Shown here piece after piece: positions 3,626-23,826 of a DNA stretch of 23,826 nt. Source of the stretch: a virus; IMG/VR virus record IMGVR_UViG_3300025112_000193, positions 1 to 23,826 of that record; one strand, written 5' to 3'. Each line of letters opens with the position of its first letter. Position 1 is the stretch's first letter. Made by a program: the position numbers and the translations under genes. The notes beneath the pieces were generated by a model. It was given only the letters and a program-made list of their open reading frames with translations. It had not been told where the DNA came from and did not search any database.

Positions 3626-5305
3626 ATGTCTGTTTTACAGAAGTTGACGGAAGGAATTGTCAACCGTAGTCTCGAAAAGGATGGTCAGGCTCTACTTGAT
3701 AAGTGGAATCGTACTGGTCTTTTGGAGGGGTTGGGTTCTGACCGCAAAAAGAATAGTATGGCTTGTCTCTTAGAGAACCAAGCTAAAGAGCTTCTTCGCG
3801 AAGCATCTGCCATGTCCCAAGGGGATGTGGAAGGATTTGCAGCAGTTGCATTTCCGATTGTTCGCCGTGTATTCGGTGGACTCGTAGCTAACGACCTCGT
3901 TAGCGTTCAGCCCATGAGCTTGCCTTCTGGTCTGATCTTTTTCCTTGATTTCACTCACACGGATACCAAGGTGGGGGCAGGAGCGACAGCGCGAACTACT
4001 TCCGTTTACGGTGGTGGCGCTGTGGCCAGTGGAATCGCTAGCGGTGTAGGCACCTTGTCTGAAACCGGTTACTATGACCTTCAGAGTGGCTACGCCTCTC
4101 CGACTGGTTCTGCGTCTGTTACTTTGGCGGCTGTGTCCGCCCTGACCGCTACTTTGGTAAGCGCTCTAAGTGAGGCGCAGAAGAAGCTTGTCAGGTTTGA
4201 CCCTGACCTTCTTGCTGACACGACCGCGCAGATCGCGCAGTTCACCTTTACAGCGCCCGCAAATCTGAATACCAATAATCTTGGTGCTTTGGATTTGACC
4301 CTTGCTGCTGAAGATGTTGTGATTCGTCGCCTGACTTCCATTAGTGGTACCACCATAACGGTTACCATTATGGATACCACAAGCAACACTGTTGCTGCGG
4401 CTGCTACCGAGTCAAAGACTGCCACATACGCTGTGGCTGATAGCTTTGCAGCCAGCACTGCTGCTGGTTCTGTTGTGGGTGGTACTCCGTGGGGTCTTGA
4501 AACTACTGGCGACACCGGTCTGGGCCTTGCAGGAGCGAATGCGGATATCCCCGAAATCGATATCAAAGTCGATTCTATCGCGGTAACCGCAATCACCAAG
4601 AAGCTCAAGGCTAAGTGGACCCCGGAATTGGGACAGGATCTCAATGCCTACCACAACCTTGACGCTGAAGTTGAGCTTACTGGTATTCTCTCTGAGCAGA
4701 TTGCTCTAGAGATTGACCAAGAAATTCTCAACGACTTGGTACAGGGTGCTACTGCTGGTACGCTCTATTGGAGCCGTCGCCCCGGTCAGTTCTTGGACCC
4801 CGAGGCTGGTACCAGTATTACCAGTGCTACCGCACCTCCCGACTTTACGGGTACGGTTTCTGAGTGGTATGAGACGCTTGTTGAGACAATCAACGACGTT
4901 TCCGCTCGCATCCACCGTAAGACCCTTCGTGGTGGTGCCAACTTTATCGTTTGTGGCCCCGAGGTTGCAAACCTCCTTGAGTTCACTAGCGGCTTCCGTG
5001 CGAAGGTCACCGCTGATGACGACAAGGGTGAAGTTGGTGCTGTGAATGTCGGCAGCATCTCAAAGAAGTGGGACGTTTTCGTCGATCCTTACTTCCTACG
5101 GAATGTAATTCTTGTAGGTCGCAAGGGTAGCAGCTTCCTTGAGAGTGGCTATGTCTACGCTCCGTATGTACCGCTTCAGGTTACTCCTACTATCTTTGGA
5201 CCCGAGGACTTCTTACCCCGTAAGGGCGTGATGACTCGCTACGCTAAGAAGATGGTACGACCTGACTTGTACGGTCTTGTGGTTGTAGAAAACCTTATTG
5301 GTTAA
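3626..5305 (+). CDS. Major capsid protein, gp23-like
   Basis: 559 residues against 521 in T4 gp23. The N-terminal region is diagnostic: a 'LLENQAKELLREASAM' segment (about 48-63), then 'FAAVAFPIVRRVFGGLVANDLVSVQPMSLPSG' (about 71-102), which parallels the T4 gp23 segment running from LLENQA through PLVRRAFPNLIA to VGVQPL. This is the HK97-type shell subunit. Residues ~110-320 are Ala/Thr/Gly-rich and longer than usual, likely including an insertion domain. Candidate prohead-protease sites of the (L/I)xE type lie at residues 32-34 and 48-50, but which is cut is not known. AAGGAGG at 3610-3616 gives a very strong ribosome site. It shares the capsid transcript with the core gene and is closed off by the terminator at 5332. 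Confidence 0.92.
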   Translation: MSVLQKLTEGIVNRSLEKDGQALLDKWNRTGLLEGLGSDRKKNSMACLLENQAKELLREASAMSQGDVEGFAAVAFPIVRRVFGGLVANDLVSVQPMSLPSGLIFFLDFTHTDTKVGAGATARTTSVYGGGAVASGIASGVGTLSETGYYDLQSGYASPTGSASVTLAAVSALTATLVSALSEAQKKLVRFDPDLLADTTAQIAQFTFTAPANLNTNNLGALDLTLAAEDVVIRRLTSISGTTITVTIMDTTSNTVAAAATESKTATYAVADSFAASTAAGSVVGGTPWGLETTGDTGLGLAGANADIPEIDIKVDSIAVTAITKKLKAKWTPELGQDLNAYHNLDAEVELTGILSEQIALEIDQEILNDLVQGATAGTLYWSRRPGQFLDPEAGTSITSATAPPDFTGTVSEWYETLVETINDVSARIHRKTLRGGANFIVCGPEVANLLEFTSGFRAKVTADDDKGEVGAVNVGSISKKWDVFVDPYFLRNVILVGRKGSSFLESGYVYAPYVPLQVTPTIFGPEDFLPRKGVMTRYAKKMVRPDLYGLVVVENLIG

Positions 5306-8113: not shown

Positions 8114-11026
8114 ATGTCAGTAAAGAGATTTAAGTTCGTATCACCTGGCGTTTTTGTCAATGAGATTGACAATTCGCAATTGCCATCAATACCAGCCCGC
8201 ATTGGGCCAGTTGTTATTGGCAGGACCGAGAGAGGACCGGGAATGCGCCCGGTAACTGTAGGGTCACAATCTGACTTTGTTGAGATGTTCGGAAATGCCA
8301 TTCCTGGTGGCCTCTCAAATGATGTTTGGCGCAATGGCAATTATCAATCGCCAACATATGCTTCATACGCGGCTATGGCATATCTTCGGAATAATGGACC
8401 TGTGACGGTGGTTCGCCTCTTGGGGCACGAACACCCGAATAAAACAACTGGCGCTGGTGAAGCCGGTTGGAATGTCTCCACCGATGCTTATGGCCTTTGG
8501 CTGTGGCCATCGAGTAGTGACACTCAATTCCAAGTAACAGGAACCTTGGCAGCGATTTGGTATATGGACGTAGGCGTGATTGCACTTTCCGGTACACAAC
8601 ACGTTGCTGAAACTGCTGTCGGGACCGCAAAAGAATCTACTTGTATGGCTATCAAGTCTGTTGGACCCAACAAGGAGTTTAAGGCGACAATTTATGAACA
8701 TGAAACAACCCATGATTCTACTACTCAAATATTACAGACGACATTCAATTTTAATAAGAATTCTGATAAATTCATTCGTAAGGTGTTTAATACCAACCCC
8801 TCTCTCGCTAGTGATGGGGATGAGATTAGCACTGTTGGCACCACAAAAGGAAAAGTCGCAAAAGAATATTGGCTTGGTCAGACGTTTGAGGATTCTCTTG
8901 GAGATGTATTGTCGGGTAGCGGCGACGATACGAACGTGAATGGAGACGGCGGATGCGTTGGTATGATAACACCTTTAATAAGTGCTGTCGGTGACACAAA
9001 AAGTTTTCAAGACTTCCGAATGACCGCGCAAAATGCAAATTCTGGCTGGGTGATATCGCAGCAGATTTCTAGTGATTCCGGCAGTTTCAACCCAAAGGCG
9101 ACGGTGCCCGAAGGTTGTGATAAATTATTTAAATTTCACGCTCTTGATGGCGGTGAGTGGACATCTAGCAATTTAAAGGTTTCTATTGAGGACGTTCGTT
9201 ATTCGCGTAACGAGGCGGAAAATCCTTTTGGCTCATTTACGGTTAAGGTGAGGCAGAGACAAGATAATGATATGGCACCTAAAGCCGTAGAGGTATACAC
9301 AAACTGTAATCTCAACCCTCAGTCTGCAAATTATGTCAAAAGAAAGATTGGCGACCAGACTTTAAGCTGGGACGAGGCTGAGCGACGTTACAGGGTTGTG
9401 GGTGATTACCCCAATAATTCAAAATTTATTAGAGTTGAAGTGAATACTGACTTGGATAACGCTGCTTTAGACCCGCTGCTTCTGCCTTTTGGCTTTCAAG
9501 GACCACCGGGCCTGAATCCGATTATTGCTCCCGGTGGTGGCGGCTATACTGTTGCCTCTACTCGTACTTCATCAGGCGATGTGGATATTCTATTTGGCGT
9601 AACCACCAAGGCGCATCGCGGCGGCAACACTGCACAACTTTATTTTGGCAGTGATACGCTTAGGTTGCAGTGGCCAACCCTACGTTGTAGGAAAAGTTCG
9701 GCAGAGGGCAACCTTTCAAATCGCCGCGCAGCCTATTGGGGCGTTGATACCCTGGCTTCCGGCAGCTCAAAAACAACCAATCCTGGTTGGAGTGACTTGA
9801 TGTATCCTCATCCTGAAAATATCGCGATGGGTGACGCTTCAGCTCCTTCAGCAAGTTTTGCCTTCACGTTGGATGATGTTGCGTTGAGTGGCGGCGAAGC
9901 AACTTGGGCTGAAGGCAAACGCACCGATGGTTTGTCTTACAGCGTTAGGGGCGCTTTAGACACCATTGGCTCTGGTAGTTGGCAGGACACTCTTGATCAA
10001 GGTATTGATAAATTTACTATGCCTCTTTGGGGCGGCTTCGACGGCCTTGACGTTAAGTCTCTTGACCCCTTTTCAACCCGTCACATAGGGACCACTGATA
10101 AGGGAAGCTATGAGTATTATTCAATCAGGAAAGCGATTGATACATGTGCCGACTCTGAAGTTGTTGAGTGTAATCTTATGGCAGTGCCGGGTGTTACGAG
10201 CAACGGCATTAACCAGCATATCGTGAACGTTGCTGAAAACCGTGCTGACTGCTTGGCAGTATTAGATATCGCTGGCGGCTACCAGCCACGGGCAGGTAGG
10301 GTTGCGACTGCGGCGTTTAGCACTTATGGCGGCACTGTTGATGCAACTTTGACTAATCTTAAGGACCTTGGTATTAATTCAAGTTACGCTTGCACATATT
10401 ATCCGTGGGTTCAGATTCGTGACACGGCCCAAGATGCGGTGGTCTGGGTGCCACCATCCGTGGTTGCTATTGGTACGATGGGAAGTTCCGAGACTAAATC
10501 TGAAGTGTGGTTCGCACCTGCTGGTTTTACCAGAGGTGGGCTGACCGAGGGTTCGGCGGGTATGCCGGTTGTTGGTGTGCGCGACAGGTTGACTTCTAAG
10601 CAGAGAGATGAGCTTTATCAGCAGAATGTTAATCCGATTGCAACGTTTCCAGCGGAAGGTATTGTAATTTTTGGTCAGAAGACCATGCAGGTTACAGCGT
10701 CCGCGCTTGATAGAATTAATGTTCGTCGTTTGATGATTTTCGTTAAGAAGGAAATCTCAAGAATGGCAGCAACCACTTTATTTGACCAGAACGTACCGGT
10801 TACCTGGAATCGCTTCTTGAGTCGTGTAGAGCCATTTCTTCGCAGCGTGCGTACTCGTCTGGGTTTGCAATCTTTCAAGGTTATCCTAGACGAGACGACT
10901 ACAACGCCAGAGCTTATGGACCGCAACATCATGTACGCAAAAATCTTGATGAAACCGGCAAGAGCTATTGAGTATATTGCGATTGATTTCGTGATTACCG
11001 ATAGCGGAGCTTCATTCGAGGATTAA
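8114..11026 (+). CDS. Contractile tail sheath protein, gp18-like
   Basis: 970 residues, much longer than T4 gp18 (659). The N-terminus 'VSPGVFVNEIDNS...PARIGPVVIGRTERGPGMRPV' is the sheath signature, and the conserved C-terminal sheath domain runs from about 650 to the end ('VECNLMAVPGVTSNGI', 'DCLAVLDIAGG', 'LDRINVRRLMIFVKKEIS', and the closing 'YIAIDFVITDSGA'). The extra length lies between about residues 120 and 640, in Gly/Ser/Asp-rich beta segments that are probably surface domains. Family role: hexameric rings stacked around the tube that contract to drive it through the cell envelope. It has its own putative promoter and a downstream hairpin, so it is probably a one-gene unit. Confidence 0.92.
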   Translation: MSVKRFKFVSPGVFVNEIDNSQLPSIPARIGPVVIGRTERGPGMRPVTVGSQSDFVEMFGNAIPGGLSNDVWRNGNYQSPTYASYAAMAYLRNNGPVTVVRLLGHEHPNKTTGAGEAGWNVSTDAYGLWLWPSSSDTQFQVTGTLAAIWYMDVGVIALSGTQHVAETAVGTAKESTCMAIKSVGPNKEFKATIYEHETTHDSTTQILQTTFNFNKNSDKFIRKVFNTNPSLASDGDEISTVGTTKGKVAKEYWLGQTFEDSLGDVLSGSGDDTNVNGDGGCVGMITPLISAVGDTKSFQDFRMTAQNANSGWVISQQISSDSGSFNPKATVPEGCDKLFKFHALDGGEWTSSNLKVSIEDVRYSRNEAENPFGSFTVKVRQRQDNDMAPKAVEVYTNCNLNPQSANYVKRKIGDQTLSWDEAERRYRVVGDYPNNSKFIRVEVNTDLDNAALDPLLLPFGFQGPPGLNPIIAPGGGGYTVASTRTSSGDVDILFGVTTKAHRGGNTAQLYFGSDTLRLQWPTLRCRKSSAEGNLSNRRAAYWGVDTLASGSSKTTNPGWSDLMYPHPENIAMGDASAPSASFAFTLDDVALSGGEATWAEGKRTDGLSYSVRGALDTIGSGSWQDTLDQGIDKFTMPLWGGFDGLDVKSLDPFSTRHIGTTDKGSYEYYSIRKAIDTCADSEVVECNLMAVPGVTSNGINQHIVNVAENRADCLAVLDIAGGYQPRAGRVATAAFSTYGGTVDATLTNLKDLGINSSYACTYYPWVQIRDTAQDAVVWVPPSVVAIGTMGSSETKSEVWFAPAGFTRGGLTEGSAGMPVVGVRDRLTSKQRDELYQQNVNPIATFPAEGIVIFGQKTMQVTASALDRINVRRLMIFVKKEISRMAATTLFDQNVPVTWNRFLSRVEPFLRSVRTRLGLQSFKVILDETTTTPELMDRNIMYAKILMKPARAIEYIAIDFVITDSGASFED

Positions 11027-20672: not shown

Positions 20673-21869
20673 ATGGCAGCACCTTTTGATACAGTTACCC
20701 CCATTACAGTCGCGCTTGGGAATAACAAGTTAGGGCCGACAGCTTCGTATATGTTTCGGAAGTATTGGAAGGAAGATGGCATGCCAACTGTCGCAGCAGT
20801 TGACCCTGAACCGATTGATTTTTGGTATGGAAAACTTTTTCATGGGAGAATAGACGGAAGTGGGGTAGTGGTGTACCCGTCTGAAACCAATCTTAAACAA
20901 ATACCATCTAACGACAAGCGTACTTACTGGGCTTTTGATTTTGTTGTGGACGCTTTTTCGGGCCTTCAGTCACATTATAAGAAAGCAGCGTTTAAAGGCT
21001 TGATAACGCCAGAAAGTAATATCACTCAGATAATGCCTAAACGTGCGTGGGTGAGCATTCATCAAAATTATAATGTATATATGGAGAATTTGTACAACCA
21101 TCTTGTTACCTTCTGGTTTCAAAAAGAGCAGCGCAACTCAAAAATTAAAAACTTTTCGGAGTTCTTACACGAATTTATGGAGTTGGTTCAATTCGAAGGT
21201 GGCGCACTACCATTCACCAAGAGCGCATACATTCTTTCAAGGTACTTCTCTCCTCTATCAAGTGGTTTTATTATAGAGATTGCAGAGGACGATCACTCTT
21301 TGGATGAAAATAAAGAAAAGAACTGGACAGAAGACCCAAACTTTTCTTTTTATAGAAATTCAGCTGCGAACTTTGGATTCATTATTGACAAGAACGCTCC
21401 ATGGAGATTGGTAGCGGATATCAATAGTCCCATTATGGCGCAATATATGAAACCATATGGCCTCGTCGGTGGAGCTAATGATTTATTTGAAACATACTAT
21501 TATCAAAGTCATCTTTTTGACATTGAAAATCTGAAGCGTTATCTTTTAGAGATGTATAATGCTTATGTGTTGGCCTATCCTCAAGCGAAAATCTTTAGAA
21601 CGAAGCTGAAGGGCGCGGGCGGCATTCAGACTGTGAGCAAGTTGATTAATCGCAGACCAATCAGCATTGAGGATGTGAATCGGCAATTTAGCCCTGCATT
21701 TTGGCTAAAAACTTATTATTATATAAGGTTGCGAGAGCTGGGTGTTCCCCGCGACCCTGTTAAATTTAATAAAGAATTAAAAAAGATCCTTCAGGAGTAT
21801 AAATTGCTTGACTTTGAACGGGCTTTGAGTTATATTAATGATAACATCCGTCGTTTAAAGGTTCGTTAG
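20673..21869 (+). CDS. Conserved phage protein of unknown function, probably structural
   Basis: 398 residues, start ATG 20673 after TAGGAG (20659-20664). Visible features: Trp- and Tyr-rich sequence, 'DFWYGKLFHGRIDGSGVVVYP' near residue 50, a helical middle ('FSEFLHEFMELVQFEGGALP'), 'FGFIIDKNAPWRLVADINSPIM' at about 235-256, and a helical C-terminus ('DFERALSYINDNIRRLKVR'). 'DKNAPWRLVADxxSP' is familiar to me from unassigned proteins of marine myoviruses. No catalytic motif, signal peptide or membrane segment. Its stop TAG shares its last base with the GTG of the polymerase gene, so the two are translationally coupled. Confidence 0.55.
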   Translation: MAAPFDTVTPITVALGNNKLGPTASYMFRKYWKEDGMPTVAAVDPEPIDFWYGKLFHGRIDGSGVVVYPSETNLKQIPSNDKRTYWAFDFVVDAFSGLQSHYKKAAFKGLITPESNITQIMPKRAWVSIHQNYNVYMENLYNHLVTFWFQKEQRNSKIKNFSEFLHEFMELVQFEGGALPFTKSAYILSRYFSPLSSGFIIEIAEDDHSLDENKEKNWTEDPNFSFYRNSAANFGFIIDKNAPWRLVADINSPIMAQYMKPYGLVGGANDLFETYYYQSHLFDIENLKRYLLEMYNAYVLAYPQAKIFRTKLKGAGGIQTVSKLINRRPISIEDVNRQFSPAFWLKTYYYIRLRELGVPRDPVKFNKELKKILQEYKLLDFERALSYINDNIRRLKVR

Positions 21870-23050
21870 TGTTATTTCAGCCAATTGATGAAAAAAGATT
21901 TATAGGTATATACGTTCACGGAATGATTCATCGCGATATCCTTCCCGCTGGCCTAAAAGCCACATGGCGACCATGCCCCTTTCTTTCTGATGAGTATGTA
22001 TATGCAAGCTTATACTGTGGTGGCAAGTCTTTAAGCGAAGTGTGCCCAGAATATTTGCTTCCGAGGTGGGAACAGACAAGCGGTCGCCTTAAAGCTCATT
22101 TAACGGCATGCCACACGGCGCAAGTAAATTTACAGGAGATTCCTTTTCTTGATTTAATACCAGAGGAGTTGCTTTTGGAGTTTTGTGAAATTAAAAATCA
22201 AATCACTGAGCATGTTTTATTAAATTATCCGAGACCCGAAAATTATGATTTTCTTCTTGACCTTGAGAGGACTTTGGAAAATATACGCAACCATAAAATT
22301 AATTTAAATCTTGGTGTTCTCCAACCATATTTAACAACTGTTCATGCGCGGTCATCATATAAAAAATTAAAGAGGTCGCGAAGGGTTGTTGATTATGATG
22401 CGTTTAAAGTAAAGACTGGGCGCTTGACAACAAAGAAGGGTAGTTTTCCGATTCTAACCTTGAGTAAGCCGTTTCGTCGGGCCATTGAGCCCAACAACGA
22501 TTATTTTGTAGAACTAGATTACAATGCCGCCGAGCTTCGGACTTTGCTAGCACTATCTGGGAAAGAGCAGCCCTGTGATGACATTCATGAGTGGAACGCT
22601 AAGCATGTTTACCCAGGATTGGCAACAAGAGAAGAGGCGAAGAAGAGAATTTTTGCTTGGTTATATAACCCCGAGTCAAAAGACCAGCTCTCTAGTCGCA
22701 CTTATGATAGAAGCTCGGTGGTTAAAAAATATTATGACGGGAGTCAGGTGGAAACCTTTTTTTCCAGAACAATACCGTCAGACGATCATCACGCATTAAA
22801 TTATATTATTCAGAGTACAACAAGCGATTTGTTCTTAAGAAGGGCGATAGAAGTTGGTAAAATACTACAAGGAAAGGAATCTTATATTGCGTTTACCTTA
22901 CATGACTCATTGGTTATTGATTATGCTAAAGAGGATAAGGATTTGATTAAGCAACTGTATGACACATTTAAAGATACTGATTTAGGACAATTCGTGGTGA
23001 ATGTTTCCACGGGTAAGAACTTTGGTGAGATGACGAAGTTGGAGCTATGA
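21869..23050 (+). CDS. Minimal family A DNA polymerase (polymerase domain only)
   Basis: 393 residues, from GTG 21869 (AAAGGT 21857-21862). Family A palm and finger motifs are present in order: 'TGRLTT' (183-188, cf. TGRLSS), motif A 'LDYNAAELR' (216-224; catalytic D217, E222), motif B 'REEAKKRIFAWLY' (254-266; R254, K258, F262, Y266 exactly RxxxKxxxFxxxY), 'NYIIQSTTSD' (311-320; Gln 315) and motif C 'LHDS' (344-347; catalytic D346). The usual HDE is HDS, and Tyr266 is followed by Asn not Gly. There is no 3'-5' or 5'-3' exonuclease domain, and only ~180 residues precede TGR, so the thumb is small. Function inferred: template-directed DNA synthesis, perhaps specialised, since T4-type phages normally use a family B enzyme. 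It overlaps the MazG-like gene by ATGA. Confidence 0.8.
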   Translation: MLFQPIDEKRFIGIYVHGMIHRDILPAGLKATWRPCPFLSDEYVYASLYCGGKSLSEVCPEYLLPRWEQTSGRLKAHLTACHTAQVNLQEIPFLDLIPEELLLEFCEIKNQITEHVLLNYPRPENYDFLLDLERTLENIRNHKINLNLGVLQPYLTTVHARSSYKKLKRSRRVVDYDAFKVKTGRLTTKKGSFPILTLSKPFRRAIEPNNDYFVELDYNAAELRTLLALSGKEQPCDDIHEWNAKHVYPGLATREEAKKRIFAWLYNPESKDQLSSRTYDRSSVVKKYYDGSQVETFFSRTIPSDDHHALNYIIQSTTSDLFLRRAIEVGKILQGKESYIAFTLHDSLVIDYAKEDKDLIKQLYDTFKDTDLGQFVVNVSTGKNFGEMTKLEL

Positions 23051-23358
23051 AGGTATATAATAAATTGGTGAGGGATAAGATCCCATCTATAATTGCCAAG
23101 CACGGGAAAGCGTTTTCCACACACAAAGCCTCCGAAGAAGAATACTTAGAAAAGTTAAAAGAAAAGCTCTTAGAAGAGGTAGAAGAATTTCTTGAAGAAC
23201 CTTGCCTAGAAGAGCTGGCTGATATTTTTGAAGTATTTAGCACACTGATTGGTACCTTGGGCCATACAGTGGGTGAGCTACGAGAGTGTGCAATGAAAAA
23301 GGTTGCAGAGCGAGGGGCTTTCAGTTCCAGAATCATTCTGGAGAGTGTAGAGGACTGA
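23047..23358 (+). CDS. MazG-like / phosphoribosyl-ATP pyrophosphohydrolase-like NTP pyrophosphatase
   Basis: 103 residues. The opening 'YNKLVRDKIPSIIAKHG' is the hallmark of the short PRA-PH/MazG-like all-alpha family, and 'EEVEEFLEE...LEELADIFEV' supplies the EExxE ... ExxD metal-binding acids. Family role: hydrolysis of nucleoside triphosphates to monophosphate and pyrophosphate, often cleaning the nucleotide pool or altering (p)ppGpp levels; the substrate cannot be told. Start ATG 23047 overlaps the polymerase stop (ATGA). Coupling to a polymerase gene suggests work on the dNTP pool used in replication. Confidence 0.8.
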   Translation: MKVYNKLVRDKIPSIIAKHGKAFSTHKASEEEYLEKLKEKLLEEVEEFLEEPCLEELADIFEVFSTLIGTLGHTVGELRECAMKKVAERGAFSSRIILESVED

Positions 23359-23359
23359 T

Positions 23360-23826
23360 ATGAAGACGATTATCGGATTGGGGAAGGCGGGCGTTGGCAT
23401 CGCTGACCAGTTTTCAAAATATCCTCAATACAATATATTTAAAATCAAGGTTGGCCCCCGCAAGGAGAGATCAAAGACAGTATTTAGCATACCCAAGAAA
23501 CAAACGCCAGAAAGTTATGAGAAAAACTGTCCATCTTTAAAGACCTTTTTGAAAGATGTAAACGGGGATGTGGTATTTGTTGTAGATGGTTCAGGATATG
23601 TTTCTGCCGCTTCGTTGAGAATTATGCAGCAGCTTAAAGATTGCCAGATTACCGTATTGTATATCAAGCCGGATATCCAATTTTTATCAGATACTTGTCG
23701 CCTGAATGAGAGAGCAGTGAGGGGTGTACTACAGGAATACGCGAGGTCGGCGGTTTTCAAAAGAATATATCTGGTTGACGTGCCGCTTGTCGCAGCAACG
23801 CTGGGAGATGTGCCAATTAAACTTTT
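23360..23826 (+). CDS. Putative diverged tubulin/FtsZ-fold protein (3' end missing)
   Basis: The frame from ATG 23360 (one base after the previous stop) stays open to the window end, at least 155 residues. It begins 'MKTIIGLGKAGVGIADQF', like the first strand and Gly loop of FtsZ. Residues ~70-108, 'DVVFVVDGSGYVSAASLRIM' then 'QITVLYIKPDIQF', can be laid along FtsZ 'VFVxAGMGGGTGTGAAPVIAEI...TVGVVTRPFxFEG', and ~111-145 'TCRLNERAVRGVLQEYARS...YLVDVPLV' fits the next FtsZ helix and strand. The signature GGGTGTG is replaced by DGSGYVS, so GTP binding may be altered or lost. A Rossmann-type nucleotide-binding protein is the main alternative. The C-terminal half is outside the window. Confidence 0.5.
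   Translation, partial: MKTIIGLGKAGVGIADQFSKYPQYNIFKIKVGPRKERSKTVFSIPKKQTPESYEKNCPSLKTFLKDVNGDVVFVVDGSGYVSAASLRIMQQLKDCQITVLYIKPDIQFLSDTCRLNERAVRGVLQEYARSAVFKRIYLVDVPLVAATLGDVPIKL

Follow-up and report, generated by a model that had tools for sequence, protein, structure and literature searches.

The closest described counterparts of the polymerase gene reported here are the divPolA1 genes, which Yutin et al. (2024, PMC11348598) described in 14 phages, three marine GOV bins and Flavobacterium phage immuto among them. Their products have a truncated thumb and lost or inactivated exonuclease residues, the palm residues being kept, and they occur alongside a regular polymerase, which may belong to family A, B or C (PMC11348598). 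The replication context of divPolA1 is the more conserved, the role of the "regular" polymerases being less obvious, and Yutin et al. proposed that divPolA1 is involved in replication while leaving open both its role and which polymerase does what (PMC11348598). A second type, divPolA2, is without a homologous thumb and is found in variable neighborhoods (PMC11348598). Beyond this article and its preprint we found no literature naming divPolA1, and the paper on Baltic Flavobacterium phages has nothing on immuto or on polymerases. We describe here a related gene in a 23,826-base stretch of viral DNA (the window).

The mini-PolA gene and its product

The gene at 21869–23050 (+ strand) begins with GTG and codes for a 393 aa mini family A DNA polymerase of the divPolA1-like type (mini-PolA), as identified by Pfam, PHROG, alignment and AlphaFold2. 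The match to Pfam PF00476 (DNA_pol_A) scores 42.8 bits (E 4.4e-11), above the curated cut-off of 34.3 bits, and the open reading frame also matches the PHROG 17 DNA polymerases (E 2.2e-16). A preliminary description of this DNA had placed all of the family A motifs within the 393 residues and proposed a PF00476 search as a check, and both the search and the alignment of the window protein with 74 relatives bear this out. Four motifs lie on the + strand: the TGRL motif (T183-G-R-L, residues 183–186; 22415–22426), in the region of E. coli R668 and invariant in the family; motif A (D217-YNAAELR; 22517–22540), with the first catalytic Asp and invariant D217, E222 and R224; motif B or the O helix (22628–22666), with R254, K258, F262 and Y266 all invariant; and motif C (H345-D346-S347; 22901–22909), with the second catalytic Asp, in which the H and D are invariant and a Ser replaces Glu in 99% of the aligned proteins. 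The N311..Q315 motif is likewise invariant. Because each of these key positions is either invariant or conserved in at least 99% of the aligned homologues, the motif set is not a product of chance, and with motifs A, B and C, the two catalytic Asp residues and a palm and fingers fold the protein is a family A DNA polymerase.

The HDS that stands in place of HDE, a point raised in the preliminary description, is thus real, yet it is not unique. The ordinary Pelagibacter phage polymerase of HTVC033P also has HDS, and gp199 of immuto has HDQ, so the motif C Ser is not diagnostic, and we rejected HDS as the mark of an unusual enzyme. To judge from the sequence, the exchange of Glu for Ser could lower the activity of mini-PolA, although an ordinary phage polymerase has Ser too. 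The same exchange, together with the strongly shortened thumb and fingers described below, would suit a catalytically dead polymerase retained as a DNA-binding or scaffolding protein, but the invariance across the family alignment of both catalytic Asp residues and of R254, K258, F262, Y266, N311 and Q315 makes this very improbable.

An AlphaFold2 model built on the family alignment is confident (pLDDT 92.8, pTM 0.89). Foldseek ranks Pol I-type polymerases at the top for this model, and VIA-align superposes it on the Bst and Taq Pol I large fragments with Z ~25 over 350–372 residues. The palm and finger fold, whose absence would have spoken against a polymerase, is therefore predicted with confidence, and the modeling of the thumb region that had been proposed gives a Pol I fold with a stub thumb. 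Counted from the GVxID-like position to TGR, this thumb has 40 residues; E. coli Pol I has ~122, SuMoo 130, T7 196 and HTVC033P 229. It thus falls well short of a full Pol I thumb, which PF00476 does not require. The fingers are shortened as well, with 53 residues from the O-helix Lys to the Q-motif Asn compared with 87 in E. coli. No exonuclease family matched mini-PolA in a profile search, which agrees with the earlier observation that no exonuclease domain is attached; loss of the exonuclease residues is judged here by this absent family match rather than by residue-wise structural superposition. The structural alignment pairs residue 1 onwards of mini-PolA with residue 316 onwards of Bst Pol I, a position inside the exonuclease domain, and on the strength of the model the N-terminal ~95 residues may therefore be a shrunken remnant of that domain rather than a novelty.

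Relatives and flanking genes

With the single protein as the query, a scan of viral contigs yielded 290 relatives of mini-PolA, and an alignment-based scan shows that at least 596 viral contigs encode it, most of them fragments and with near-duplicates that are not independent. Set against the 14 genomes from which divPolA1 was known (PMC11348598), the larger number shows that mini-PolA is common in an abundant lineage of phages. The aligned relatives are all 391–399 aa long. This near-constant length in 74 relatives, together with the intact upstream gene that they share, excludes a broken long enzyme, and no sign was found of the upstream frameshift or truncation that the preliminary description had named as a possible refutation. 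Among cellular genomes there is a single match, in a WOR-3 MAG (CP070664.1; L109:8704-14063). N runs join this phage piece to the bacterial sequence, so that it is probably a mis-scaffolding artefact; the MAG is uninformative on the host, and a host assignment from it was rejected.

More distant relatives are present in three other genomes. Immuto encodes a 441 aa mini-PolA (gp001) in addition to a ~780 aa PolA with an exonuclease (gp199). Microcystis phage Mel-JY01, on which we found no paper, has a 408 aa mini-PolA in the same gene position (PP395634.1, 50397-51623; WWT39333, annotated as hypothetical) and a separate 848 aa PolB, and LR756508, a 484 kb record, has a mini-PolA and a DnaE. The three share gene order and the stub thumb with the window type, and gp001 matches the Mel-JY01 and LR756508 proteins over 89–99% of its length. 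The "DNA polymerase I" label of Mel-JY01 WWT39339 is probably a misannotation, since its sequence carries the 5′-3′ exonuclease domain PF02739. In hhalign the immuto-type and window family profiles are matched with a probability of 98.7 (E 1.8e-16, 268 columns), and the two group together against regular PolAs at 99/98 in a tree of 15 rows with long branches and a midpoint root.

These findings correspond to the published features of divPolA1. First, the window protein is related to immuto gp001, by both hhalign and the tree. Second, it has the truncated thumb, the lost exonuclease and the kept palm residues. Third, a regular polymerase is co-encoded in its relatives (DnaE in 17 of 17, see below), the 23.8 kb window being too short to show one. 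Finally, conserved replication genes follow downstream (SSB, RecA, FEN and DnaB in contigs L004 and G001). As it agrees with the description on every tested feature we file it as a member; its sequence fits a divPolA1 member or a close sister, the marine GOV records (e.g. QDP51333, MK892584) having been compared by description only.

Upstream of mini-PolA the window contains a T4-type structural cluster, as had been stated, with genes for a tail fibre-like protein (3–2006), a T4-type major head protein of 559 aa (3626–5305), a long tail sheath of 970 aa (8114–11026), a tail tube, a baseplate hub and a baseplate wedge. Its last member (20673–21869, + strand) is a conserved gene for a 398 aa protein without Pfam or PHROG identification, and its stop codon overlaps the mini-PolA start by 1 nt (TAGTG). 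The overlap is real, and the preliminary description had spoken of translational coupling at this point. However, although a gene of ~400–680 aa precedes mini-PolA in most relatives, most have a gap of ~2–54 nt and no overlap, so coupling to the upstream gene is not a conserved feature. The position directly after the baseplate-side cluster and the 1 nt overlap are also what could be cited for a polymerase packaged in the virion, as the preliminary description had considered, and acting at DNA entry. Beyond this adjacency nothing speaks for it; the overlap is not conserved, the genes that come next downstream are replication genes, and the adjacency reflects the point at which the structural module gives way to the replication module. 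Of all the explanations weighed here we hold packaging to be the least credible.

On the downstream side a MazG-like gene of 103 aa (23047–23358, + strand) overlaps the end of mini-PolA by 4 nt. It has a weak match to PF12643 (E 0.04, below the cut-off), and in relatives a gene of this kind between mini-PolA and the following gene is present in L004 but not in all. Next comes a gene for a tubulin/FtsZ-fold protein, of which the window holds the first 155 codons (23360–23824, + strand) before its end. Homologues of ~275–312 aa are full length in L004 (L004:2261-3097) and L040 (L040:6423-7277), and in at least 33 loci such a gene follows mini-PolA, either directly or past a short gap or small gene. 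A Pfam search of this protein gave no match, but the AlphaFold2 model of a full homologue (pLDDT 92.9) aligns with CetZ at Z 24.6, TubZ at 23.5 and FtsZ at ~21–22. Its signature is altered, with a GGSGxISGAS-like sequence in place of the usual GGGTGTG, and we looked for a canonical T7 loop and saw none. A phage tubulin-fold protein adjoining the replication module is an observation in its own right.

L004 (67% identity), the nearest relative with sufficient sequence downstream, has the order mini-PolA, MazG-like, tubulin-fold, gp32-like SSB, RecA/UvsX, a hypothetical gene, flap nuclease (FEN) and DnaB helicase, in which SSB, RecA, FEN and DnaB are named by their likeness to Pfam-identified genes of G001, a 186 kb contig. 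In G001 the PolA-SSB-RecA-FEN-DnaB order recurs; here a DnaK gene separates FEN from DnaB, and ribonucleotide reductase and DnaE come after DnaB. The flap nuclease (PF02739) was matched in 30 of 35 records, the remaining five having less than 3 kb after mini-PolA, and wherever a searched contig is long enough to include it, it lies 3.3–9.1 kb downstream of mini-PolA. Apart from these genes, G001 (L090-L099) holds in its intervals 151254-152822 and 173907-175784 the genes for DnaK (HSP70, E 4.6e-251) and, to judge by the start of its sequence only, GroEL, and it also has IMP dehydrogenase-like and ribonucleotide reductase genes.

A second polymerase and the predicted role of mini-PolA

Phages of the T4 superfamily had been expected to carry a family B polymerase, and the preliminary description proposed looking for one, or for a separate DnaQ-type exonuclease, in the rest of the genome. 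Neither was found in the marine relatives: PF00136 matched nothing in 33 marine contigs, four of which are 190, 186, 156 and 147 kb long (the PolB of Mel-JY01 was recovered as a control), and the searched marine contigs gave no DnaQ-type and no PolA-type 3′-5′ exonuclease. In this group the expectation fails, and the second polymerase belongs to family C. Among 38 marine contigs searched, all 17 that extend at least 17.8 kb beyond mini-PolA, not all of them independent, have a DnaE, located ~13–22 kb downstream and on the same strand; one more contig ends inside a partial DnaE, and contigs with less downstream sequence show none. The DnaE of G001 is 1142 aa long with PHP, palm and finger domains, and all eight DnaE proteins checked keep the three catalytic Asp residues as well as the nine PHP metal ligands that align with DnaE1 (structure 5lew). 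Mycobacterium tuberculosis DnaE1 is a model for proofreading through PHP, and with the ligands intact in eight of eight the DnaE proteins of the relatives are plausibly able to proofread in the same way. The window ends 776 nt after mini-PolA, and its own DnaE and FEN are predicted from the relatives; by analogy with these, the window phage most likely has as its main replicase a family C polymerase of the DnaE type, separately encoded and bearing a PHP domain.

With a separate, intact family C replicase in the relatives, and with three other carriers that have an additional A, B or C polymerase, the reading of mini-PolA as a replacement replicase is not supported. One might still argue that mini-PolA is the main replicase and DnaE the accessory enzyme, as mini-PolA heads the conserved replication module and, according to Yutin et al. 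(PMC11348598), the regular polymerases have a less clear context. We find this improbable in view of the stub thumb, the lack of proofreading, the PHP-bearing DnaE intact in all 17 far-reaching contigs, and the second polymerases of three families in the other carriers: mini-PolA is not the sole polymerase in its relatives and has no 3′-5′ exonuclease match.

The explanation that we favor, and think probable, is that mini-PolA is an accessory second PolA of the divPolA1 type, without exonuclease and with a stub thumb, that fills gaps beside DnaE as the main replicase. Since its neighbors are SSB, RecA and FEN and the DnaE probably proofreads, gap filling after primer removal is the simplest role, and among the four offered in the preliminary description (replacement replicase, split enzyme, gap filling, virion packaging) it is the best fit, as a role assigned by analogy. 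Studies of Pol I are the basis for expecting a weak DNA grip and short synthesis from a polymerase with a stub thumb and no exonuclease, and it is from such comparisons that we infer catalytic activity, low processivity and a gap-filling role for mini-PolA; gene neighborhood in itself does not prove function. Holding DNA weakly and making short additions, mini-PolA would synthesize short stretches and then hand over. Its template would be DNA coated by the neighboring gp32-like SSB, and where the separate FEN removes primers from lagging-strand fragments mini-PolA would fill the resulting gaps, perhaps also doing so at recombination intermediates. Mini-PolA and FEN would then be the equivalent of a bacterial Pol I divided between two genes and lacking proofreading. 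The suggestion of a split enzyme with its exonuclease elsewhere thus holds for the 5′ flap nuclease, which is separate and a few kb downstream, but not for a 3′-5′ exonuclease, the searched marine contigs having none of the DnaQ or PolA type.

The main rival to gap filling is recombination-linked synthesis, in which the polymerase would extend D-loops or repair breaks with SSB and UvsX/RecA and start recombination-dependent replication before DnaE takes over. The gp32-like SSB and RecA are directly downstream of mini-PolA, closer than the helicase or DnaE, and in immuto and Mel-JY01 RecA lies between PolA and FEN. However, FEN belongs to the same cluster and fits primer removal equally, and the T4 replicase itself extends D-loops; we consider this rival unlikely. 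Somewhat more doubtful still is a working PolA that dispenses with its thumb, the grip on DNA being supplied in trans by SSB, RecA or the tubulin-fold protein, and that would be a recombination-linked or lagging-strand specialist beside the PHP-bearing DnaE. For gap filling, the fact that mini-PolA is constantly paired with an intact DnaE, and with a flap nuclease on its own gene, points to a division of labor that can be tested.

Comparison with known systems

Among described polymerases immuto gp001 is the nearest in character. Both are small PolA proteins with a truncated thumb and no working 3′-5′ exonuclease, encoded in addition to a regular polymerase, and both genes are located between baseplate-side genes and SSB-RecA-FEN-helicase. 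They differ in sequence (~20% identity): the window type keeps ...ELR in motif A, Arg in motif B, and HDS, and the immuto counterparts are an HLR-like sequence, no Arg and YDA. The divPolA2 candidate of barbavirus Barba18A (gp034) is also a small exonuclease-less second PolA beside another polymerase, but in one multiple alignment, and as a candidate only, it aligns poorly and is without TGR, the Q motif and the motif B Y. T4 has a similar virion gene cluster, but its replicase, gp43, is of family B, for which the 33 marine contigs gave no PF00136 match. With bacterial Pol I (Klenow and the Bst and Taq large fragments) mini-PolA shares the palm, the O helix, the catalytic residues and the overall fold; it differs in its thumb (40 residues against 122) and its K-to-N finger span (53 against 87), in having at most a possible remnant of the exonuclease domain, and in that the 5′ nuclease is on a separate gene. 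Nearly thumbless, mini-PolA is a natural minimal Pol I.
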